Shown: piece by piece, positions 17,335 through 64,000 of the stretch | How the letters are laid out: the number at the start of each line of letters is the position of its first letter | How positions within the stretch are numbered: position 1 is the stretch's first letter | DNA from: Mya arenaria | Lineage: Eukaryota > Mollusca > Bivalvia > Myida > Myidae | Length of the DNA: 64,000 nt | Assembly: GCF_026914265.1 (NCBI RefSeq) | Contig: NC_069132.1 | Span: 33,288,932 to 33,352,931, forward strand | Direction of reading: 5' to 3' | Notes under the pieces: generated by a model | The model's database searches: none | The model's input: the letters and a program-made list of their open reading frames with translations, nothing else | What the model was told of the DNA's origin: nothing | Translations under genes and position numbers: made by a program

Positions 17335-19327
17335 TTAAGGCATACTTCGCAAAACATCAGAATATGTCGGCGGTGGTTGGCATACTTCTTCATAACTTGG
17401 CGGATCATTATTACTTTCAGTATGAGTGGAATTCTGTGATGTATTCATGTTATTGTTTGCATTTAACTGCTCTATGCTTTGTCTGGTCTGAGCATCAGAA
17501 GTGTGTGTTGGTGTTGACCTAGTCTCAGGTTGATAACCGTTGTGTGCGCCATTGATTCGTATAGCGTTTCCTCCTCCTGTAACAGTATAGATTGCGTTAT
17601 CTGATGTTTGGACGTAATTGTTATTGATATGTTGATTCATTCGTTGCATAGTCAAATGTGAAACCCTCTGCTGTTCTGTACATATATTCTGTGCTATTCT
17701 CTCTCGATGTTTTCTTCTTCTTTTATTGTTTATATAACACACAAATACAGTTAATAATGATGCAATAACGATCACAGCAAATGCTATTCCAAGTGCTTCG
17801 GCAGTATTTAAACGTTTATCTAAGTCTTTACCATAGTTCTCATTTTTAACACACTTAGGATTCCCACATTCGTCCTCCACACAATCAAACAAACGTCCAC
17901 AGTTTTTATTAGCACAGCCCCTATAGGGACCACAGTTTCTCTGACAACGATCACCGATGAACCTCCCCCAGCATTTACACATGGCTCTACATGCAGTGGC
18001 ATTGATATAACACTCGCCTCCATTTTGGCAAACTTGGGCAGTTGTTTTGCAAGGGTCTTTGTATGTATCACTTGTAATATAGACACTAAATTAGCAAAAA
18101 TCACCATGAAATCCACATGGACACTCACAAGCATATTTTCCATCTTTATTATTTACATAACAAGAACCTCCATTTTTACAAACTGGATGCTTTCCCATAC
18201 TCGGACACTGACTCCTAGATGGTTTTCGTGGTGGCATTTCCGTTGTATTTGGATACTGGCAAAATGTACCCACGAAACCATTTGGACATTTACAGCCATA
18301 GCTAATATAGTTAGGCCAACCGCCAATGAATTGTACGCACTCACCCCTTTTACAAAGTCGACTATCACAGCTGAAGTAATAAGGAGCGCGTTTGTCCATT
18401 TCCTCGCAGAACTGGCCAATAGTACCACATTTGCATGAGCACCCAAGGTATTGTCCTTGAATATATGCCCTGGCTTCATTTTCGCATTCCCAACTTTCTG
18501 AAAGGTATTTTCTATCTATTATTTCGCATCTTGCTCCTTTAGAACCGAAATGACAATCACAATCATTTGTCCTATTATCCACAGGTCCGGCAACTATGCA
18601 AACACCACTATGGCAATCAAGGTTAGAAGAACAAGGCATCCCTAATGTAATATAATTGTACTGACACATGTCCCCAATTCTTTTCTCAGAGCAGATGCAC
18701 GTGATGTTTTTCGTGTACTGGTCAAAGAAGCATTTCCCATCTCCATTACAGTTGACATTTATGTCACACTCTGTGTCAGCCTTGATATCACAGTTTTCAT
18801 TTAGAAAGAAACTCATTTCGTCTAGGCTGCAGAGTCCAGGTGGACATGCCGAAAAAACTGATCCTGAAAAAAATCCCACGTAAAATGTAATGTTTAATCA
18901 TTTAAACGTTTATTTTGAATTCACCATTTATGACTTTTTGTTATTTATCACTTTCAATGGTAAATATCAATGTATGACTATCTACTTGAAAAGATATTTG
19001 TTAAACAAAAATAAATTCAACTGAATTTTGAATTCACTATTTATGACTTTTTTTTGTCATATATCATTTTCAATGGTAAATATCAATGTATGACTATCTA
19101 GTAGAACAGATATTTGTTAAACAAAATAAATTCAACTAATAACGCAGGTACAGAGTTATTACCCTTGAAAAGGGATCGAGAGTGATTCATATCCGCTTCG
19201 ATCTCACCCGTATTTACAGTCGAGGTAAAATAAATGAATATAAATGTAAAACTTTCTATTATTTCCCTTAAATATGACAAATTGTCTTACCTGCTAAACA
19301 GGTTAAGAAAAGTAACACAAACTCCAT
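17335..19327 (-). pseudogene. Type 1 EGF/PPxY membrane protein with premature stop (gene B)
   Basis: Exon 1 (19327-19291) encodes MEFVLLFLTCLA with a phase 1 GTAAGA donor, and exon 2 (18863-17335) follows TTTTTTTCAG. Without the lesion it would be 521 residues, exactly the length of gene C with no indels. Codon 270 is TAA (18093-18091) where gene C has CAA, within HGDFC-Q-FSV at the end of the fifth EGF module. Translation would stop at 269 residues, removing the sixth module, the membrane helix and the PPSY/PPTY tail. Everything after the stop is still open and closely conserved. It may be a young pseudogene, a gene for a secreted short form, a null allele, or a base-call error. I favour a recent nonsense mutation. 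Confidence 0.8.
18913..19137 (-). repeat. Two-copy tandem repeat in intron 1 of gene B
   Basis: The segment starting TTTTGAATTCACCATTTATG repeats after about 113 bp (18913 and 19026). The same pair occurs in gene C intron 1 (34693 and 34801), so the duplication is older than the split of B and C. Confidence 0.8.
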
Positions 19328-33114: not shown

Positions 33115-35097
33115 TTAAGGCATACTTCGCAAAACATCAGAATATGTCGGCGGTGGTTGGCATACTTCTTCATAACTTGGCGGATCATTGTTACTTTCAG
33201 TATGCGTGGAATTCTGTGATGTATTCACGTTATTGTTTGCATTTAACTGCTCTATGGTTTGTCTAGCCTGAGCATCAGAAGTGTGTGTTGGTGTTGACCT
33301 AGTCTCAGGTTGATAACCGTTGTGTGCGCCATTGATTCGTGTAGCGTTTCCTCCTCCTGTGACAGTATAGATTGCGTTATCTGATATTTGGACGTAGTTG
33401 TTATTGATATGTTGATTCATTCGTTGCATAGTCAAATGTAAAACCCTCTGCTGTTCTGAACATATATTCTGTGCTATTCTCTCTCGATGTTTTCTTCTTC
33501 TTTTATTGTTCATATAACAAACAAATACAGTTAATAATGATGCAATAACGATCACAGCAAATGCTATTCCAAGTGCTTGGAAAATATTTAAACGTTTATC
33601 TAAGTCTTTACCATAGTTCTCATTTTTAACACACTTAGGATTCCCACATTCGTCCTCCACACAATCAAACCAACGTCCACAGTTTTTATTAGCACAGCCC
33701 CTATAGGGGCCGCAGTCTCTGTTACAACGATCACCGATGAACCTCCCCCAACATTTACACATGACTCTACATTCAGTGGCATTGTAATAACACTCGCCTC
33801 CATTTTGGCAAACTTGGTCAGTTGTTTCGCAAGGGTGTTTGTATGTATCACTTGTAATATAGACACTAAATTGGCAAAAATCACCATGAAATCCACATGG
33901 ACACTCACACACATATTTTCCGTCTTTATTATTTACATAACAAGAACCTCCATTTTCACAAACTGGATACTTTCCCATACTCGGACACTGACTCCTAGAT
34001 GGTTTTCGTGGCGGCATTCCCGTTGTGTTTGGATACTGGCAAAATGTACCCACGAAACCATTTGGACATTTACAGCCATAGCTAAAAAATTTAGGCCAAC
34101 CGCCAATGAATCGTACGCACTCTCCCCTTTTACAAAGTTGGTTATCACAGCTGTAGTGATAAGGAGCGCGTTCGTCCATTTCCTCGCAAAACTGTCCGAC
34201 AGTACCACATTTGCATGAACACCCAAGGTATTGTCCTTGAATATATGCCCTGGCTTCATTTTCACATTCCCAACTTTCTGAAAGGTATTGTCTATCTATT
34301 TGTTCGCATCTTGCTCCTTTTAAGCCCAAAGGACAATCACAATGATTTGTCCTATTATCTCCAGGTCCGGCAACTATGCAAACACCACTATGGCAATCAA
34401 GGTTAGAAGAACAAGGCATCCCGAATGTAGTATAATTGTACTGACACATGTCCCCAATTCTTTTCTCGGAACAGATGCACGTGGTGTTTTTCGTGTACTG
34501 GTCAAAGTAGCATTTCCCATCTCCATTACAGTTGACATTTATGTCACACTCTGTGTCAGCTTTGATATCACAGTATTCATTTCGAAAGAAACTCGTTTCG
34601 TCTAGGCTGCAGAGTCCAGGTGGACATGCCGAAAAAACTGATCCTGAAAACAAACGCACGAAAAATGTAATGTTTATTCATTTAAACGTTTATTTTGAAT
34701 TCACCATTTATGACTTTTGTTATATATCATATTCAATGGTAGATATCAATGTATGACTATCTAGAAAATATATTTATCAAACAAAATAAATTCAACTAAA
34801 TTTTGAATTCACCATTTATGACTATTTTATTATATATTATTGTCAATGGTTAATATCAATGTATGACTATCTAGAAAAGATATTTGCTAAACAAAATAAA
34901 TTCGACTAATACCACAGTAACGGGGTTTTTACCCTTGAAAAGGGATCGAGATTGATCCATATCAGCTTCGATCTCACCTGTCTTCACAGTCGAGGTAAAA
35001 TAAATGGATATAGATGTAATACTACCTATTATTTCCCTTAAATATGACAAGTTGTCTTACCTGCTAAACAGGTTAAGAAAGGTAACACAAACTCCAT
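33115..35097 (-). CDS. Type 1 EGF-module membrane protein with tandem PPxY tail (gene C, intact)
   Basis: Exon 1 (35097-35061) encodes MEFVLPFLTCLA, phase 1, with a GTAAGA donor. Exon 2 (34643-33115) follows TTTGTTTTCAG and holds all the rest; the product is 521 residues. Order: signal peptide; SACPPGLCSLDE cap; six EGF-like, cysteine-rich modules (for example CNGDGKCYF...CICSEKRIGDMC, CENGGSCYV...CECPCGFHGDFC, CQNGGECYY...CKCWGRFIGDRC); an extra cysteine cluster (CGPYRGCANKNC); membrane helix about 370-390; basic KRRRKHRER; and a 131-residue Asn/Gln/Thr-rich tail with PPSY (500-503) and PPTY (510-513). The PPxY pair is a WW-domain ligand in known families, so recruitment of a Nedd4-like ligase is an inference. 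YEEV also resembles a Src-family SH2 ligand. Several NxT/S sequons lie in the ectodomain. It is the reference copy of the cluster. Ligand and role are unknown. Confidence 0.88.
34693..34909 (-). repeat. Two-copy tandem repeat in intron 1 of gene C
   Basis: TTTTGAATTCACCATTTATG at 34693 and 34801, period about 108 bp. Counterpart of 18913-19137 in gene B. Confidence 0.8.
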
Positions 35098-50400: not shown

Positions 50401-53400
50401 TATGCTCTTGTGTATTAAATGTTACATAAGTTTATACGGATTACAATAGCTCAGAGCTGGACAAATACCTGCTAGATTGCTTGAAGAAGAACAACTTATA
50501 AACCCAATTAATATTCACCTCACCTTGAAAGTTTGGATCATTCTGGTGGTATGTAAACCAGTAAGGGGCATTGGTTAGTTGACATTATTCAAGCAAACTT
50601 GATACTAATGTTATCAGTATAAAGTGACGAGGATGTCACACAAGGAATATTATAACCATGTTTTTGCTGCAGATCCATCCCATGTGATAGGGTTGTTTCC
50701 AAACTTGTTGCCGCCAGACTTCCGCAAAAGCCTGGATTACCCAGAAAAACTGCCGGACCTGCAGGGAGGGGACCTAGAGAAGGGCCTTCTTGCACTCACT
50801 GACTACCTCAATGATGTGAGTAACACAGTACCTTAGCTCCTCTTTTTTCAGTACCTCAATGTTGTGATTACCTCAGTTGTGTGAGTATTTATTGACAAAT
50901 GACTGCTATACCTCTGGGGAGGTGACCTAGAGAAGCATTCCTGGTGCTTACTGAGTACCATAGTGATGTGAGTACCTCAATTATTTTGAGTATTTTATTG
51001 ACACTAGAAAGCTGGACCTCCAGAAGGGCCTCCTGGTACTTGCCTCAATAATGTGAGTACCTCATTTGTGTGAGTACTACAGTAATGTTGTTTCCTCAAT
51101 GGTTTTAGTACCTCAGTGATATGAGGACATGTTTAACTCTATGATGTTTTTGAAGGAAAAACAAAACAGGCAAACATTCTGCTTTCAATTTTCTAACTTT
51201 TTTACATATTTTAATTAAAAAATCAAAAGATGATTCATATAGTTGCACAACATGTTCTTAATTTTTGGCCTGATTACTATAAGCAGATAATTGCCTGATT
51301 GTTCAGAAGATTGTTGTTGTAACAACATGATTGTTAATTTTATAAGGTGAAATTATTGTTGATATGCTCATATATTTTTTAACAGTTGTCGCGAACCTTG
51401 TTTTAAATACTGCTGATGAAAAATGTGTCCATGAACGTTTCAGATAAATACAGATTCGAAACATAAAAAAGACGTTGTATTAACTAATCATAGTTCTAAA
51501 CAATTAGTCCATTCTGTTTCTGTACTTATTGCCCTGTTTTGTTGTTTGACAGAAAAAGCGTATGTTGAACAAGGAGAAGGTAATATCTACAACGGCCATC
51601 AAGGAGGGCAACAAGCTGGTCGTCTCCAAGGAGCAGCTCTCACAGATTATAGACACAACACTCATGAAGTGTTACCTGCAGGTTGTAGTTTTCATATTTG
51701 TCAAACTTAAAAAAACCTGAATTCTTTGGGTTTTGGTTTAGAGATAAGTTTCTGACACAACACCGGTCAGTCCTTAATTGTTATATTCTGTTCGTATGTG
51801 CACATTTTTCCAGATCTAGAATCTGGATGTTTTAAGTCTCGTTATTGTCCCCGAAAGAAGGTTGAGCCAATAAAGCTTACATGAACAATCAACATTGTCA
51901 AGAAACATCCTTCACAGGGTTGCACATGTACATTGTGTGGGATATGATATTTTCAGACAAACGATGCACTGGTGGCATCTCTGTTACGCTTGAAGGACAA
52001 CAAGGTTCATGTGGAGGAGGCCGAGAGGTCGCTGAAGAAAAAGGAAAAATACAGCGAACTGATCATCCTCTATGAAAAGAAAGGTCTCCATGAGAAAGGT
52101 AACTTCTGTTTTGTGTTTCATAATTGATCAGTTATTAAACTGATGAGGATTCGATCATGGTAAATAATGAATTCTCAACACAATATATGCATTCATCGAT
52201 TTCAGCCAATAGATAACGAACCACTGCTACTGTCTTCTCAGAAAATTGTCTCTATCCATCCTGTTGCTTCAAATGTAGTCTATATACATGTAAATTTCTA
52301 TATTTTTTGCAGCATTAAACACATTGATGAAGCAAGCAACCAGACCCAACTCCTTGTTACATGGCTGTGATAGAACTGTGCAATATTTACAACACCTAGG
52401 TATGTTCGTACAATCAGCTTGTATAAATTCATCTAATGTATACTTATATGTAATTTGATGGATATAAATTTAATGAAAATACTTGTTGTTTAGATTTAGA
52501 TGTACTGTACAGTACATACTTGTGTGTATTTAAGACATGTTGAGTTTCTTTTCTCCGAAGGTTCTTGTTACTTGCATGTAGGTACATCTATTTCTCACTG
52601 TTGCAGGTCCTGATCATTTGAAGTTGATATTTGAATATGCTGAGTGGGTGATCAGAGAAAATCCAGAGGAAGGAATAAAGGTAAAATACATTTTTATCCT
52701 TTTATTTTACACTGCAACATAAAAAATAGTCATATTTCTATTAAGAGAAGCAGGCCGATCAATTACTTTAGAAGCTTTAGAAGCCCTGGTCCAATTATCA
52801 CAAAGTTAGAATGTGTATAGGTATACTATCTTGGACAAGTTTGATAACCTGCCATTTAGCTTGAGTTACACACGAGTTATGAGTCTTGATTTGGCAAAAA
52901 CTATATTTACAGTGTCCACTCTTTTGGCTAATGTACAACCAGTCATCACCAAACTTGGAGTTCTAAAATATTTAGGGCATTATTTGCAACAGGTGGCACT
53001 CTTGCTTTAAGTCATTTATTTATGTAATGTGATCTTATGGCATAGAAGACATACATGTTCATGAAATATGATGAATGTTTGAAAGAAAAACTGTTTGTCA
53101 CAGATTTTCACAGAAGATCTTCCGGAGGTGGAGAATCTTCCTAGGCAGCTGGTGCTTGAGTACCTAGAAAACATTGACCGCAATAACAAGGACCTGGCCA
53201 TCAAGTATTTGGTAAAACCATCTGGCACCATTTAAACAAACTTGACCCTCAAGATATTCCTTATGAATATAAACATACTATCTTGATTACCTGGAAAACA
53301 TTGACCACAGTAACAAGGACCTGGCCATCAAGTATTTGGTAAAACCATCTGGCACCATTTAAACAAATTTGACCCTTAAGATATTCCTTATGAATATAAA

Positions 53401-55069
53401 CATACTATCTTGATTACCTGGAAAACATTGACCACAGTAACAAGGACCTCGCCATTAAATATTCGGTAAAACCATCCGGCACCATTTGATTCTCAAGATA
53501 TTCCTTTTTAATATGACAATAATATCTCAATTATGTATTTGATGCACTACAGAGCATCTATGACAGGCAATTTAACCACTAAACCTTGCTAATGCTAGCT
53601 ACATAACTTAACCTGAATAGATGCATTTGAGTTTAATCCTCTCTGTTTCATAAGAAGAACCTAGTCCATGAAAGATGATGTAATGTGTTTAAATTTTGCA
53701 AAGGTTTAAATATTTGTCTCAAAATGGTCAGGTAACAAATTGAAATGAGAGTCTTATCCATGACAGATTCTGTTATTTATCTAAATGTCACAAAAGTTTA
53801 AATATTTGTCTCAAAATGATCTGACAGGTCACAAATTGGCTAAATAACAAAGTTATCGTTGATGGTTAATAGTACATTGCAAAGTGTAACAAATTATAAG
53901 TAATCTGTAGTAGCATATGGTAAACCATTTCAGGAACACGTGATCTATATGTGGAATGATAATAGTGAAGGGATGCACAGTCGGTTTGCCCATCTGCTGC
54001 GGGAGAAGGTCCAGAGATATATGCCCGAGTACCTTGCCCAACTTCCAGAAGGTAAACGTTTTCCATTTCTTGTTTGTCTTTGGTTTTGAAAATGATTGAA
54101 ATTAAAATGACTACCACCAACATTTCAAATTACAATTTCTATCAACAGAGCAGTGAAGGATATAAGTGAATTACCACCAGATATATCTATCTGGGGGCTA
54201 TATAGGAATTGCATTCATCACATGGCATCCAATCATGTACTTTGCAAATCTCAACAATTCTTAAGTCGTATGTAGCTTTTAAAATAATGCACCAACATGA
54301 AACTTCATATGAATGTTGATCAGCATAGGCTGTTGTGCACCTGCCATTTTAGCCTCATTTCATTTGGTCTTACAAGAGTAGTGACCCTTGAATTAGTAAA
54401 AAAAGGTCTGTGTTGCATGTAGCACCAAATGTATGATGTCTACACTCATGAAACTTCATAGGAATCTTGATCAGCATGGACTGTTGTGCATCTGTTATTT
54501 ATGTCTAATTTCCTTCGGGCTTACATACGTTATGGCTCTTGGAATAGGAAAAATGGTCTGAAAAGGCATTGTTAAATGCATTGCAATACAATATGATAGT
54601 AATGCAAATTCTTACCTTGTTGATTCTAAGAAACAATATTAAACCATTTCTGTGTCTAGGCAGCTCTTCTTTTGGGTATTTATCATGGCAGTTATAGCCC
54701 TAGTTCCACTAGCAAAAATATAAAGCATTTGCATAAAAGTGTTTAATAATAGCTGCAACCTTTTGAAATATATCATTCAAATATGAATAAATATTAATTT
54801 CTACACTACAGGCCACATGCCGTGCAAGGCTGGGAAGGAGGTAGGAGAGCTTGGGGAATATCGCACCAAATTAATCAACTTCCTGCAGACGTCCACATTC
54901 TACAGACCAGAGGAACTGCTTCCAAGATTCAAAATGACTGGTATGCTTCATTGATTTGTGTCCGTTGTAGTGATACTTAATTAAGTTGAAACTGCCCTCA
55001 AACACTGCCAATAGTGCAGCTCTTAAACTAACATGCTCCTTCGCCTTTATACTATACACATTTATGTTC

Positions 55070-58600: not shown

Positions 58601-60962
58601 ACTACTGTATAATGAAGAAGCTCACCTCAGTGAGTGAGGTACATCCACTGTATAGTGGCAAATGTCCTTGAAGCTGACTCCTGTGAGGAGGAAGCGGCCC
58701 TGGATGGTGACAACTTTGTACTCCCATACTTATACTTCCACCTTCATCATAATTACCAAAGATTTTTACTTTGATTGAATAACAGGCTTGAATATGGCAA
58801 AAAATAGCAGATAAAGCAATCTATATTTCTAAAGAGAAATCTCTGAGGTTGGTTTTATTGTGTCGCCTGAAAAGATGACATATAGGGGTTACTTTTGTCG
58901 GCGGCAGCGGCGTCGGTGGCGGTGACGGCGTCCACGTCCCATTTTCGCTTGTCCGGGGTATATCTCCTAAACTATTAGTGGTATCAACTTGAAACTTCAT
59001 ATGTAGATAGATTTCATGGAGGGCAAGTGCAGTGCACAATAACAGTAACTCTTGCTTTCTTAGTTTTAAAGTTATTGCCCTTTGTTAATTTTCATGCTTA
59101 AAGTTTTGTCCGGGGCATATCTTGAAGAATATAAGAGGTATCAACTTGAATCTTCATAGCTAGATAGATCTCATTGAGGGCAAGTGCAGTGCACAAGAAC
59201 CGTAACTCTTGCTGCCATATTTTTAGTTATTGCCCTTTGTTAATTTTCATGCTTAAAGTTTTGTCCGGGGCATATCTTGAAGAATATAAGAGGTATCAAC
59301 TTGAAACTTCATAGCTAGATAGATCTCATTGAGTGCAAGTGCAGTGCACAAGAACCGTTACTCTTGCTGCCATATTTTTAGAGTTATTGCCCTTTGTTAA
59401 TTTTCTTGCTTAGGTTTTGTCTGTGGCATATCTCGTAAACTATCAAATGCCACCTACACTTGAAAGTTAAATGGCAACATCATTGTCTATAAATGAATAA
59501 AATGCCAATCTAACAGCTATAATGTCGACAGTAAATAATTCGTCCGGCGACACATCCGACTCGCGGAGTTCTAGTTTGAATAAATCAACTCTCAATTCAT
59601 CAATTATTTTCATTAGTAATGGTTGAAATACAGCTAATCCTTAAGACTGTTCTCATTCCTTGTAACGATAGGGATTTTTCACTTTAAATACTTGTACTTG
59701 AAATAACACTTTCCTTTTCATTGTTGTGCATTGAAATATTAAAGCTGCACTCTCACAAATTGACCATTTTGACAGCTTTTTTATTTTTTGTTAAAGGCAT
59801 ATGGACTTGGATACAATATATTTTTCTTTAATAAAAGGTTACCGGTTATTATCAAGTAGATAATCATAATCTGATCCAAGCTTCATATCAGTTGTAACCA
59901 GCTTTCACAGATGTTGCCACGGCAGCTAACAAAGTCCTATGTTTCTGTTCTTATGTGCACAGAAGTTAGTATTATTCATAATCTGATGTGTATCTGCCAG
60001 GCCCTTGAGTTGCTGCCGGCAGACACAAGGATTGTGGACATTCTTACATTCCTGGAGAACGTACTCGAGCTAAAGGCCGCCACCAAAAACAAAAACAGGG
60101 TGCTTCGGAACATGCTCTTCTCTGAGAGTTTACATGTAAGTCAGGGCCCATTATTATCTAACATCCTGACTCGGACTGAGATAAAAACAAATTTGATAAT
60201 GTTACAAATTATCTTGAATATAATTATGTTTGGCACAATATGTATGCATGATTGCAATACATATATTATTTTGAACATGTGCAGCAATTTTTTATTTTAC
60301 CAATACTGCTCTTCAAATAGCTATGATTATAAGATTGAAAGGTGTCCAGTATTGAGTCTCAAACTGGCACTCTAGACATTAGTGCATGTAGGCACCAGAG
60401 CTCGCAAGGCAGCAAAATGTCAGTGGGTCTAGAAAAGAATTTGCCTTTATAAGCTGAAAAAATTTGTAATCTTAAGTTTTCTGTCTAATCAATTGTGAAC
60501 TTAGGTACTTAGTGCCTTATTAAATTACGATTGCTTGTGAGAGTATAAAAGAGTTATTGCTGTGATTTTTGTTGGCAATGGTATTAAACAACAGTTACAT
60601 TTTGGCATAATAGATACAGATCACCATATAAACATGTGTATATAACTTGGAAATGGTCAATTTATATGCGTTTGTAGTTTGTACACATACATGATTGGTA
60701 TTAAATGCAATAACTAACTTAAGTTTAATATTCATTGTTTTGAGTATAATTTCTTCTAGATATACTTTAGAGACTGTTTTGTAGTACAAGCAATATATTT
60801 ATGATGATAATTCAGCCATACATATTTTCAAGGCTGCATTGTTGCTTAATTTTGCCATTTTCCTTGATAGGTTCACGAGCAGCGGATGTTTTATGAGAAA
60901 GAGAAGGTTGTTATAACAGATCTCAAAAGCTGTATGGTGTGCAAGAAACGCATTGGAAACAG
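41402..60962 (+). CDS. VPS39: VPS39/Vam6, HOPS vacuolar tethering subunit (23 exons, 3' end beyond window)
   Basis: Exons: 41402-41474, 42750-42821, 43535-43602, 44499-44541, 46622-46716, 47433-47543, 48284-48376, 48763-48946, 49680-49918, 50220-50349, 50673-50815, 51553-51681, 51957-52098, 52313-52399, 52607-52680, 53104-53211, 53934-54051, 54812-54940, 55875-55977, 56287-56332, 58372-58524, 60001-60135, 60871-60962. All junctions are GT-AG and phases agree, giving 2567 coding bases (855 residues plus two bases). The protein follows animal VPS39 throughout: start MHDAYE (human MHDAFE), a CNH domain, an alpha-solenoid with both Vps39 domains, and the start of a C-terminal CxxC zinc finger. 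VPS39 is the HOPS subunit that binds Rab7/Ypt7 and tethers late endosomes, autophagosomes and lysosomes. About 20-30 residues remain to be found past the repeat array. The window contains no competing copy. Confidence 0.95.
42750..49918 (+). CDS. VPS39: VPS39 exons 2-9, citron-homology (CNH) beta-propeller
   Basis: These exons encode residues about 25-326: EVLLVGTKDGPLLKYTVKK (exon 2), VHDLTSFTPI...GASLF (exon 5), RRKIHLMYWKNRDF (exon 6), IVWCKEKLCVGFKRDYY (exon 7), KELFPLG...VKWTDIPVSI (exon 8), and VRTIEPHLMIQSI...YVASSNHVWRLSAVP then FELALQLA (exon 9). The block corresponds to the N-terminal CNH domain, with the region of contact to Rab7 inferred from the family. Exon 4 is only 43 bp. The introns hold a SINE (43181-43375), a 63-bp palindrome and MITE remnants. 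Confidence 0.94.
43181..43375 (+). mobile_element. tRNA-derived SINE in VPS39 intron 2
   Basis: GGTTGTCCGGTTAACACAGTGG, then GGTTTGATTCCCGGACTGGG, give A- and B-box-like blocks of a tRNA-related head. The following GGGTTTTCTCTGGGGACCTG CCCC resembles the conserved central domain of bivalve V-type SINEs (motif recognition only). The 3' end grades into AT-rich intron. Confidence 0.75.
47745..47875. repeat. Foldback-MITE end fragment, VPS39 intron 6
   Basis: ATCAGCAATCCTATGTCACTGG then CAATCTGTGAGAATGCAGCTTTAA resembles the right half of the element at 15460-15842, diverged and lacking its other half. Confidence 0.6.
48150..48212. repeat. 63-bp perfect palindrome in VPS39 intron 6
   Basis: Two 31-base arms are fully complementary around a single central T at 48181. 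The arm reads ATAGCTAGAACTCTGATGAA then CCTAATATATA. It would form a hairpin in DNA or in the pre-mRNA. No transposon ends are visible beyond it. Confidence 0.9.
50220..52680 (+). CDS. VPS39: VPS39 exons 10-15, solenoid start and Vps39 domain 1
   Basis: These exons encode residues about 327-561: QQLYAVNLFCKKEFEKSM (exon 10), PSHVIGLFPNLLPPDFRKSL (exon 11), LSQIIDTTLMKCYLQ (exon 12), LLRLKDNKVHVEEAERSLKK with KYSELIILYEKKGLHEK (exon 13), RTVQYLQHL (exon 14) and EYAEWVIRENPEEGIK (exon 15). The TTLMKCYL block is characteristic of Vps39 domain 1. Confidence 0.94.
50751..51128 (+). repeat. Exon 11 3' end and splice donor, degenerate tandem copies
   Basis: The exon 11 end (GACCTAGAGAAGGGCC... CTCAATGAT) plus GTGAGT donor is copied in the following intron. 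One copy ends at 50967 (GGTGACCTAGAGAAG...GTGAT|GTGAGT) and another at 51052 (CCAGAAGGGCC...AATAAT|GTGAGT). A shorter core, TACCTCAATGATGTGAGTA, recurs further, down to about 51128. One copy at 50851 directly follows a real-looking acceptor (CTCCTCTTTTTTCAG). Confidence 0.8.
53104..60135 (+). CDS. VPS39: VPS39 exons 16-22, C-terminal alpha-solenoid
   Basis: These exons encode residues about 562-825: IFTEDLPEVENLPRQLVLEY (exon 16), EHVIYMWNDNSEGMHSRFAH (exon 17), GELGEYRTKLINFLQTSTFY (exon 18), EERAILLGRLGRHEVALGLY (exon 19), YCRTYYKKGKPGDKD (exon 20, 46 bp), VYYYLLKVYLEPPDHSVLGL (exon 21) and ALELLPADTRIVDILTFLEN then KNRVLRNMLFSESLH (exon 22). This is the clathrin-heavy-chain-like repeat region leading into Vps39 domain 2, which contacts other HOPS subunits in the known complex. 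Confidence 0.94.
53158..53535 (+). repeat. 127-bp tandem triplication spanning exon 16 end and donor
   Basis: Three copies with period 127 bp start at 53158, 53285 and 53412. Each contains the last 54 bp of exon 16 (YLENI...NKDLAIKYL), the GTAAAACC donor and 73 bp of intron. Copy 2 is still readable as exon (YLENIDHSNKDLAIKYL). Copy 3 has TTCG for TTTG. The copies lack an acceptor of their own. Confidence 0.93.
54290..54570 (+). repeat. Two-copy direct repeat in VPS39 intron 17
   Basis: CATGAAACTTCATATGAATG...GATCAGCATAGGCTGTTGTG recurs about 155 bp later with changes (54297 and 54453). It resembles a dispersed bivalve intronic repeat. It has no coding value. Confidence 0.7.
55073..55100 (+). 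repeat. (TA)n microsatellite
   Basis: A run of alternating T and A in VPS39 intron 18. Confidence 0.9.
55648..55694 (+). repeat. (TG)n microsatellite
   Basis: About 23 TG units in VPS39 intron 18. Confidence 0.95.
56690..57670 (+). repeat. Tandem repeat carrying ERE-like palindromes, VPS39 intron 20
   Basis: Seven units with spacing of about 124-146 bp share AAGGTCACAGTGACCTTGAA, GTGATAACTCAACAATGCC, CTCAAACTTGACTTGG and CCAGTAGATGACCCC. The 13-bp palindrome GGTCACAGTGACC is perfect at 56844-56856, 56968-56980 and 57365-57377. It has one mismatch at 56715, 57114, 57238 and 57510. Several are preceded by TCAAGGTCA half sites. Confidence 0.88.
58861..59552. mobile_element. Element with TGTCGCC ends and internal 156-bp repeats
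   Basis: The left end TGTCGCC (58861) and right end GGCGACA (59552) are inverted. Inside, a unit with GTCCGGGGCATATCTTGAAG, AGGTATCAACTTGAA and AGTTATTGCCCTTTGTTAAT repeats four times (starts near 58951, 59108, 59263, 59419). A GC-rich GGCGGCAGCGGCGTCGGTGG block lies near the left end. A non-autonomous DNA element is likely; there is no coding region. Confidence 0.65.
59740..59800 (+). repeat. Foldback-MITE terminal fragment
   Basis: TTAAAGCTGCACTCTCACAA then TTGACCATTTTGACAGC matches the left end of the element at 15460-15842. The rest of the element is not recognisable. Confidence 0.7.
60871..60962 (+). CDS. VPS39: VPS39 exon 23, first half of the C-terminal zinc finger
   Basis: The acceptor TTGATAG precedes VHEQRMFYEKEKVVITDLKS, then CMVCKKRIGN. 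The CxxC (about residues 846 and 849) is the first metal-binding pair of the Vps39 domain 2 finger. The exon ends AAC AG|GTACAA, phase 2, so the next exon should supply the third base of the Ser seen in IGNS of other animals. The remaining Cys/His pair lies beyond the window. This exon is the founder of the array that follows. Confidence 0.93.
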
Positions 60963-63900
60963 GTACAAACAGCTTGTTTTTACTGATCTCAAAGCAGTAT
61001 GGTGGGCAAGACACATTGGAAACAGGTACAAACAGCTTGTTTTTACTGATCTCAAAAGCAGTATGGTGGGCAAGAAACACATTGGAAACAGGTACAAACA
61101 GCTTGTTATTACTGATCTCAAAAGCAATATGGTGGGCAAGAAACACACTGTAGACAGGTACAAACAGCTTGTTATTACTGATCTCAAAACCAGTATGGTG
61201 GGCAAGAAACACATTGGAAACAGGTACAAACAGCTTGTTTTTACTGATCTCAAAGCAGTATGGTGGGCAAGACACATTGGAAACAGGTACAAACAGCTTG
61301 TTATTACTGATCTCAAAAGCAGTATGGTGGGCAAGAAACACATTGGAAACAGGTACAAACAGCTTGTTATTACTGATCTCAAAACCAGTAAGGTGGGCAA
61401 GAAACCCATTGGAAACAGGTACAAACAGCTTGTTATTACTGATCTCAAAAGCAATATGGTGGGCAAGAAACGCATTGGAAACAGGTACAAACAGCTTGTT
61501 TTTACTGATCTCAAAGCAGTATGGTGGGCAAGACACATTGGAAACAGGTACAAACAGCTTGTTATTACTGATCTCAAAAGCAGTATGGTGGGCAAGAAAC
61601 CCATTGGAAACAGGTACAAACAGCTTGTTATTACTGATCTCAAAAGCAATATGGTGGGCAAGAAACACATTGGAAACAGGTACAAACAGCTTGTTATTAC
61701 TGATCTCAAAAGCAGTATGGTGGGCAAGAAACGCATTGGAAACAGGTACAAACAGCTTGTTATTACTGATCTCAAAAGCAATATGGTGGGCAAGAAACGC
61801 ATTGGAAACAGGTACAAACAGCTTGTTTTTACTGATCTCAAAGCAGTATGGTGGGCAAGAAACGCATTGGAAACAGGTACAAACAGCTTGTTATTACTGA
61901 TCTCAAAACCAGTATGGTGGGCAAGAAACACACTGTAGACAGGTACAAACAGCTGGTTATTATTGATCTCAAAAGCAGTATGGTGGGCAAGAAACCCATT
62001 GGAAACAGGTACAAACAGCTTGTTTTTACTGATCTCAAAACCAGTAAGGTGGGCAAGACACATTGGAAACAGGTACAAACAGCTTGTTATTACTGATCTC
62101 AAAACCAGTATGGTGGGCAAGACACACATTGGAAACAGGTACAAACAGCTTGTTATTACTGATCTCAAAACCAGTATGGTGGGCAAGAAACACATTGGAA
62201 ACAGGTACAAACAGCTTGTTATTACTGATCTCAAAACCAGTATGGTGGGCAAGAAACACATTGGAAACAGGTACAAACAGCTTGTTATTACTGATCTCAA
62301 AACCAGTATGGTGGGCAAGAAACACATTGGAAACAGGTACAAACAGCTTGTTATTACTGATCTCAAAGCAGTATGGTGGGCAAGAAACACATTGGAAACA
62401 GGTACAAACAGCTTGTTATTACTGATCTCAAAAGCAGTATGGTGGGCAAGAAACCCATTGGAAACAGGTACAAACAGCTTGTTATTACTGATCTCAAAGC
62501 AGTATGGTGGGCAAGAAACGCATTGGAAACAGGTACAAACAGCTTGTTATTACTGATCTCAAAGCAGTATGGTGGGCAAGAAACACATTGGAAACAGGTA
62601 CAAACAGCTTGTTATTACTGATCTCAAAGCTGTATGGTGGGCAAGACACATTGGAAACAGGTACAAACAGCTTGTTATTACTGATCTCAAAACCAGTATG
62701 GTGGGCAAGAAACACATTGGAAACAGGTACAAACAGCTTGTTATTACTGATCTCAAAGCAGTATGGTGGGCAAGAAACACATTGGAAACAGGTACAAACA
62801 GCTTGTTATTACTGATCTCAAAACCAGTAAGGTGGGCAAGAAACACATTGGAAACAGGTACAAACAGCTTGTTATTACTGATCTCAAAGCAGTATGGTGG
62901 GCAAGAAACACATTGGAAACAGGTACAAACAGCTTGTTATTACTGATCTCAAAACCAGTAAGGTGGGCAAGAAACCCATTGGAAACAGGTACAAACAGCT
63001 TGTTATTACTGATCTCAAAAGCAATATGGTGGGCAAGAAACGCATTGGAAACAGGTACAAACAGCTTGTTATTACTGATCTCAAAACCAGTATGGTGGGC
63101 AAGAAACACACTGTAGACAGGTACAAACAGCTGGTTATTATTGATCTCAAAAGCAGTATGGTGGGCAAGAAACCCATTGGAAACAGGTACAAACAGCTTG
63201 TTTTTACTGATCTCAAAGCAGTATGGTGGGCAAGACACATTGGAAACAGGTACAAACAGCTTGTTATTACTGATCTCAAAAGCAGTATGGTGGGCAAGAA
63301 ACCCATTGGAAACAGGTACAAACAGCTTGTTTTTACTGATCTCAAAGCAGTATGGTGGGCAAGACACATTGGAAACAGGTACAAACAGCTTGTTATTACT
63401 GATCTCAAAACCAGTATGGTGGGCAAGAAACACATTGGAAACAGGTACAAACAGCTTGTTATTACTGATCTCAAAGCAGTATGGTGGGCAAGAAACACAT
63501 TGGAAACAGGTACAAACAGCTTGTTATTACTGATCTCAAAACCAGTATGGTGGGCAAGAAACACATTGGAAACAGGTACAAACAGCTTGTTATTACTGAT
63601 CTCAAAGCAGTATGGTGGGCAAGAAACACATTGGAAACAGGTACAAACAGCTTGTTATTACTGATCTCAAAACCAGTATGGTGGGCAAGAAACACATTGG
63701 AAACAGGTACAAACAGCTTGTTATTACTGATCTCAAAGCAGTATGGTGGGCAAGAAACACATTGGAAACAGGTACAAACAGCTTGTTATTACTGATCTCA
63801 AAGCAGTATGGTGGGCAAAAAACACACTGTAGACAGGTACAACCAGTTTGTTATTACAAATCTCAAAGCTGTTTGGTGGGCAAGAAACACACTGTAGACA

Positions 63901-64000
63901 GGTTCAACCAGCTTGTTATTACTAATCTCAAAGCTGTTTGGTGGGAAAGAAACACACTGAAGACAGGTTCAACCAGCTTGTTATTACTAATCTCAAAGCT
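60907..64000 (+). repeat. Exon-derived tandem array, about 47 units of 62-66 bp
   Basis: Each unit copies the last 56 bp of VPS39 exon 23 plus the first 10 bp of its intron (...GGAAACAG|GTACAAACAG). The commonest length is 66 bp. A missing A (AAAGCAG) gives 65, and AAGACAC for AAGAAACAC loses two more; units with both are 63. In all copies after the first the second Cys codon of CxxC is changed (TGC to GGC), and the first almost always (AGT or AAT). Variants AAACCC, AAACGC, AAACAC and ACTGTAGAC are shuffled in short higher-order patterns. Units from about 63830 onward are diverged (CTGTTTGG, GGTTCAACCAG) and mark an older edge. The array continues past the window. The long ORFs on both strands are by-products of the 66-bp period. 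Confidence 0.95.

Follow-up and report, generated by a model that had tools for sequence, protein, structure and literature searches.

How does a gene fare when the edge of one of its exons, splice donor included, is copied dozens of times into the intron that follows? The question is raised by a stretch of 64,000 nucleotides from Mya arenaria (the window, G000:C11:33288932-33352931, from an assembly of 1.216 Gb in 18 contigs), in which the zinc-finger exon of VPS39 runs directly into a tandem array. On the plus strand, the exon copy and 47 units of 63-66 bp occupy 60908..64000 and continue to about 64031 (L009:162, downstream of the window), as delimited by Tandem Repeats Finder (TRF), donor junctions and an assembly search. 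We consider it probable that this is an exon-edge minisatellite which originated by tandem duplication, and that removal of the intron starts for the most part at the first donor, later ones being used occasionally.

The VPS39 locus

Joined, the last exons of the gene matched PF10367 (zf-Vps39_C) at 3e-18, human VPS39 in 6ze9 at 6.4e-12 and yeast Vam6 in 7zu0 at 0.0044; judged by these sequence matches, the gene carrying the array is VPS39. The first-pass annotation had read the array as an amplified VPS39 exon edge with its donor, unit 1 being the true exon, and the PF10367 and 6ze9 matches bear this out. With peptides and splice sites as guides, 17 exons were mapped from 41402 to 64472; the gene model is incomplete in its 5' part, the first donor is uncertain, and an exon ahead of 46622 may have been missed. 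The zinc-finger exon lies at 60871..60962 (plus strand; PF10367 positions 2-21, acceptor at 60871, spliced reading) and encodes the first, CxxC half of zf-Vps39_C. Its true donor is ACAG|GTACAA, and its last ~55 bases form copy 1 of the array. The true last exon, 64364-64472, with TTTATCCATTTCAG ahead of its acceptor, matches the first donor in phase and gives the joined reading IGNS-FFARYPNG. Since the two exons join in phase, VPS39 is intact; with the last exon 3.4 kb downstream and in matching phase, the alternative raised with the first annotation, that this copy might belong to a separate pseudogene, was rejected. The PF10367 match is divided over these exons (positions 2-21, E 0.009; positions 22-40, E 7.2e-4; both pass the family cut-off), so that the array separates the CxxC half of the finger from the HxxC half. 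The introns flanking the zinc-finger exon measure 735 bp and 3.4 kb, and about 3.1 kb of the latter, the last VPS39 intron, is array. A stronger zf-Vps39_C match (6.0e-10) was observed in a single exon on another chromosome (L031, G000:C4:59303534-59303626), which we take to be perhaps TGFBRAP1, a related CORVET subunit. For human VPS39, the predicted zinc ligands are Cys841, Cys844, His863 and Cys866, according to excerpts of PMC7384125.

Anatomy of the array

TRF called the array at 60908-63997 with a period of 66, 47.3 copies and 94% matches. By sequence comparison, each unit is a copy of the terminal ~55 exon bases together with ~11 bases of the intron. Beyond the exon copy there are 46 donor-bearing units (27 of 66 bp, 12 of 65 bp, six of 63 bp and one of 64 bp); a terminal unit without donor crosses the end of the window and stops at L009:162. 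Including the true one, 47 GT donors were counted, 45 of them ACAGGTACAA (ACAG|GTACAA) and two ACAGGTTCAA. About 47 repeats with dozens of identical donors had been described previously; the exact string GGAAACAGGTACAA is present 41 times, not 47. The second Cys codon of the finger is gone in 47/47 units, as had been noticed, while it had been overlooked that the first is also lost in the frame of the exon (TGT to AGT or AAT). GCTGT is retained in four units (u27 and u46-u48), but with a -1 shift.

Searched against the assembly, the unit returned at least 48 matches, 48/48 of them at the VPS39 locus. Within the reach of this search, the array is a single-locus minisatellite, with no arrays at several loci; its earlier description as a satellite overstated a single-locus minisatellite that has other exon-edge copies beside it in the gene and genome. 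Open frames as long as 551 aa also cross the array on the minus strand (60891-62546), a consequence of the unit length and of open frames.

Splice sites and the choice of donor

Splice matrices were built from the 14 other donors and the 15 acceptors of VPS39, a small set. The donor CAG|GTACAA scored 7.59, above 98.5% of 3459 GT sites, and the other VPS39 donors, each left out in turn, ranged from -0.38 to 9.0 with 10/14 below 7.59. By score, the donors of the array are usable. With such scores, the 46 extra donors might act as decoys that bind U1 snRNP, compete with the true donor and lower or tune VPS39 via frame-shifted products. A parallel is seen in excerpts on human ABCA7, where longer alleles of a donor-containing repeat accompany lower expression; the same source, however, reports that the retention of one repeat unit is independent of array length, the length-dependent effect being the skipping of exon 19 (PMC5954066). 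Exon definition favours the upstream donor (PMC9225289, in excerpt), and the first 13 extra donors are in frame, the wrong way to yield decoy products. Regulation by decoy is in our view unlikely.

According to the accessible part of PMC9225289, the upstream one of near-equal donors is preferred where the flanking introns are long, in data apparently of non-molluscan origin. Applied to flanking introns of 735 bp and 3.4 kb, this preference predicts the use of donor 1. The acceptor at 64364 would then be spliced mainly to donor 1, and later donors would probably be used at a low level. If used, donors 2-14 would lengthen the finger between its CxxC and HxxC halves by 21-22 residues for every unit, and donors after 14 would shift the frame or lead to a stop. 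With donor 1 predominant and later donors at a low level, the effect of the array would be mostly splicing noise. RNA structure was considered as well and rejected, since units 20-22 folded no better than shuffled sequences (z 0.48).

It had been proposed that CAG|TATGG, 30 nt before the donor, could open a frame-keeping mini-exon within the units. CAG|TA[TA]GG was indeed found in 38/47 units; the spacing is 30 nt in 32 of these and 28 nt in six, which makes such an exon conceivable in the 32. Within the array, CAG|TA sites score at most -1.25 as acceptors, against at least 3.5 for 14/15 VPS39 acceptors (the remaining one scores -2.28), and the mini-exon was rejected on account of acceptors too weak by matrix score. 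The same matrix bears on another conceivable mechanism, in which AG|GT at the unit boundaries serves as acceptor and donor at once and units are removed singly or stepwise. The motif is present in 47 places, and dual-specific sites have a precedent in UBC (PMC10809524, in excerpt). Yet the 51 AG|GT sites in 60970-64100 scored only -12.66 to -0.76 as acceptors on the 15-site matrix, the best of them beyond the array, and we regard dual-specific splicing as extremely improbable.

Growth of the array

The mean identity among units 2-44 is 95.0%. The distal units 45-48 (63782..64000, plus strand, the last one without donor) are divergent, with 89, 82, 83 and 79% identity to units 2-44, and the exon copy shares 87% with them. 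All 47 units differ jointly from the exon, e.g., GTGGG where the exon has GTGTG, which points to an origin in one early copy or to homogenisation. Inner units combine exon-like and distal-like states, and 23 variants occur among the 47 units. All four combinations were found in 20/300 biallelic column pairs; these pairs fit exchange between units, repeated mutation being an alternative source that may account for them. Neighbouring units are identical in the pairs 16-17 and 34-35. A higher-order repeat was considered and rejected; a two-unit alternation in units 39-44 and a few recurring unit pairs were seen.

The array would have started as a tandem duplication at the exon edge and spread into the intron via unequal exchange or conversion. 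Selection would maintain copy 1, and the other copies would drift, being spliced out with the intron. Long arrays are prone to misassembly, and the number or order of the units might be an artefact. However, the sequence contains no N, the units vary as described, and both flanks are parts of one gene, in matching phase; an artefact is very unlikely.

Reading frame and signs of selection

Two features of the array weigh against an intron removed mainly from its first donor and drifting thereafter. Units 2-14 (60973..61821, plus strand) are all 63 or 66 bp long, and their donors keep the VPS39 frame. In joined readings, every one of donors 1-14 yields full-length VPS39 and none of donors 15-47 does; over the whole array, 13/46 unit lengths are not multiples of three. 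An in-frame run over donors 1-14 was reached by 0.58% of 200,000 unit shuffles and by 1/46 rotations. Moreover, the donor-bearing final 14 columns of the unit are invariant among units 2-44 (P 0.023), while the distal units vary there. An invariant donor end is what upkeep of the donors would give, as a hint. Both features are hints only, because they were seen first and tested afterwards and because copied blocks make the units dependent; for the latter reason, the shuffle P of 0.006 is too small.

The frame run could be taken as an in-frame donor ladder, with donors 2-14 in use and VPS39 proteins carrying 1-13 zinc-finger inserts of 21-22 residues. Full-length products from donors 1-14 and none thereafter, with the shuffle value just given, would fit this. 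On the other side, the units lack both Cys codons, and all nine substitution types in units 2-14 alter a residue (9/9 nonsynonymous, none synonymous); among units 2-44, 12/13 types are nonsynonymous, 38/198 of the possible changes being synonymous. Nine types without a synonymous one give no sign of protein constraint, and together with the dependence of the units this makes a ladder in use quite unlikely. A coding repeat protein was rejected as well, since constraint was not seen and the frame is lost at unit 15. In the read-through frame, a match to the PDB entry of Crov588 (E 4.3e-07 for the whole, 0.23 for the best stretch) and matches to eight Pfam families, for which no single stretch passes, were discounted as arising from the 22-residue period; a ninth family, zf-Vps39_C, is the true exon.

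Comparison with known systems

The closest precedent is human ABCA7, in which a variable number tandem repeat (VNTR) of 25 bp in intron 18 includes the donor of exon 18 and extends over about 12 to 427 units. There, the donor of the next unit is used without an effect of length, and skipping of exon 19 rises with length (PMC5954066, in excerpt). Both arrays begin at and include the donor of their exon and carry a GT in each unit. They differ in that the ABCA7 unit, as far as described in this source, is intronic from GT on, whereas the 63-66 bp units of VPS39 are mostly derived from the exon. Length variation and effects on splicing have been shown for ABCA7 in the excerpted text, while the VPS39 array is known from the sequence of one assembly. 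As the exon downstream of the VPS39 array is the last, exon skipping as in ABCA7 has no direct counterpart.

In the model of Rogers, an intron is gained through tandem duplication of a segment containing AGGT (PMC4974935, in excerpt). A duplicated segment with AG|GT at an exon is shared with this model, ACAG|GT being present in every VPS39 unit except the last. In VPS39, however, no new intron is evident; it is an existing one that grows, and the AG copies have poor scores as acceptors. Excerpts on UBC describe AG|GT arrays that splice variably by dual-specific sites, in tandem units with AG|GT at every boundary as in VPS39; the UBC units are coding and spliced there, whereas those of VPS39 are without coding constraint and have weak acceptors (PMC10809524). 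VNTR6-1 in intron 6 of TERT is likewise an intronic minisatellite tied to splicing, but inclusion of a splice donor is not mentioned in the available portion of PMC11830802. Among the listed titles and abstract openings of open-licence papers, no exon-edge array in any mollusc was found. Besides its human precedent, the anatomy of the VPS39 array has sister cases elsewhere in VPS39 and in the genome.

Exon-edge copies in the gene and genome

Donor-side edge copies were found at two further exons among the 17 of VPS39. The first, at exon 53114-53211, is a repeat of 127 bp x 2.6 detected by TRF at 53155..53487 (plus strand); it takes in the 3' edge of the exon, the donor and ~70 intron bases, and the donor GGTAAAACC is present in both extra copies. 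The second, degenerate and missed by TRF, lies at 50764..51074 (plus strand) in the intron on the donor side of exon 50673-50815, with donors GATGTGAGTA and AATGTGAGTA at 50966 and 51051; GTGAGTA is kept twice. A 13-bp match at exon 50220 was left out of the count.

Outside VPS39, an edge array was present at 1/33 sampled exon matches (DEAD 1/23; TCP1 and kinesin 0/10). It is a mirror case: at L045:320-845, the acceptor and first ~80 bases of a DEAD-box exon, presumably of a DDX18-like gene, are contained in an upstream array of 141 bp x 3.6. The DEAD sample comprised 23 matches on 20 stretches, chosen by eye from 50 matches and none with an internal stop; several stop-free matches were left out as near-duplicates or likely mobile elements, and some for no set reason. 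For TCP1 (61 matches) and kinesin (132), ten matches on eight stretches were sampled, one of them cut by the end of its stretch. Not counted were L043 and L048, with repeats beside the match, and L054, in which a 13-bp repeat (277-309) overlaps the start of the match by 9 bases. In L048 (933-1059), an intronic 19/38-bp array was seen to stop ~11 bases before a minus-strand DEAD-box exon match, not copying the exon. The sampled rate may be low because about 0.3-0.7 kb of flank was covered and the matches end where the domains do, and the VPS39 count is inflated because the gene was reached through its array. Without the exon first reported, VPS39 has 2/16, indistinguishable from 1/33 elsewhere (P 0.25). 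Exon-edge copies are thus a recurring feature of the genome, the array in the last VPS39 intron being the longest among those found. A bolder reading would hold that exon-edge arrays are general in the genome and that the VPS39 array is a 14-step in-frame donor ladder, from whose proximal part frame-shifting units were cleared since its donors are used, giving a variable zinc-finger insert; its probability appears slight.

Tandem arrays with a period of at least 20 made up 17.0% of the bases (40 merged arrays) in 18 arbitrarily placed 10-kb pieces (180 kb). They are unevenly spread, with about 19.7 of the 30.6 kb concentrated in three pieces; the remaining 15 have a mean of about 7%, close to the 8.3% of the window. 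The abundance of tandem arrays, like the recurrence of exon-edge copies, speaks for the minisatellite reading. Among the arrays listed, one in L017 reaches 141.8 copies. Downstream of VPS39, a 44-bp array of about 40-50 copies was observed at L009:4815-7250 (window-equivalent 68684-71119); L017, too, contains a 44-bp array. Dimers of 110-116 bp with near-identical consensus (ATTTTGAATTCACCATTTATGAC...) at 18912-19137 and 34692-34909 represent a dispersed repeat.

Significance

A conserved lysosome-fusion gene with 47 near-identical donors in a single intron is a natural test of the choice among equal 5' splice sites and of the tolerance of spare donors. Should edge arrays be as common as these small samples suggest, tandem duplication at exon edges would feed intron growth and supply spare splice sites in this genome, and changes in the length of such arrays could make splicing vary among animals.

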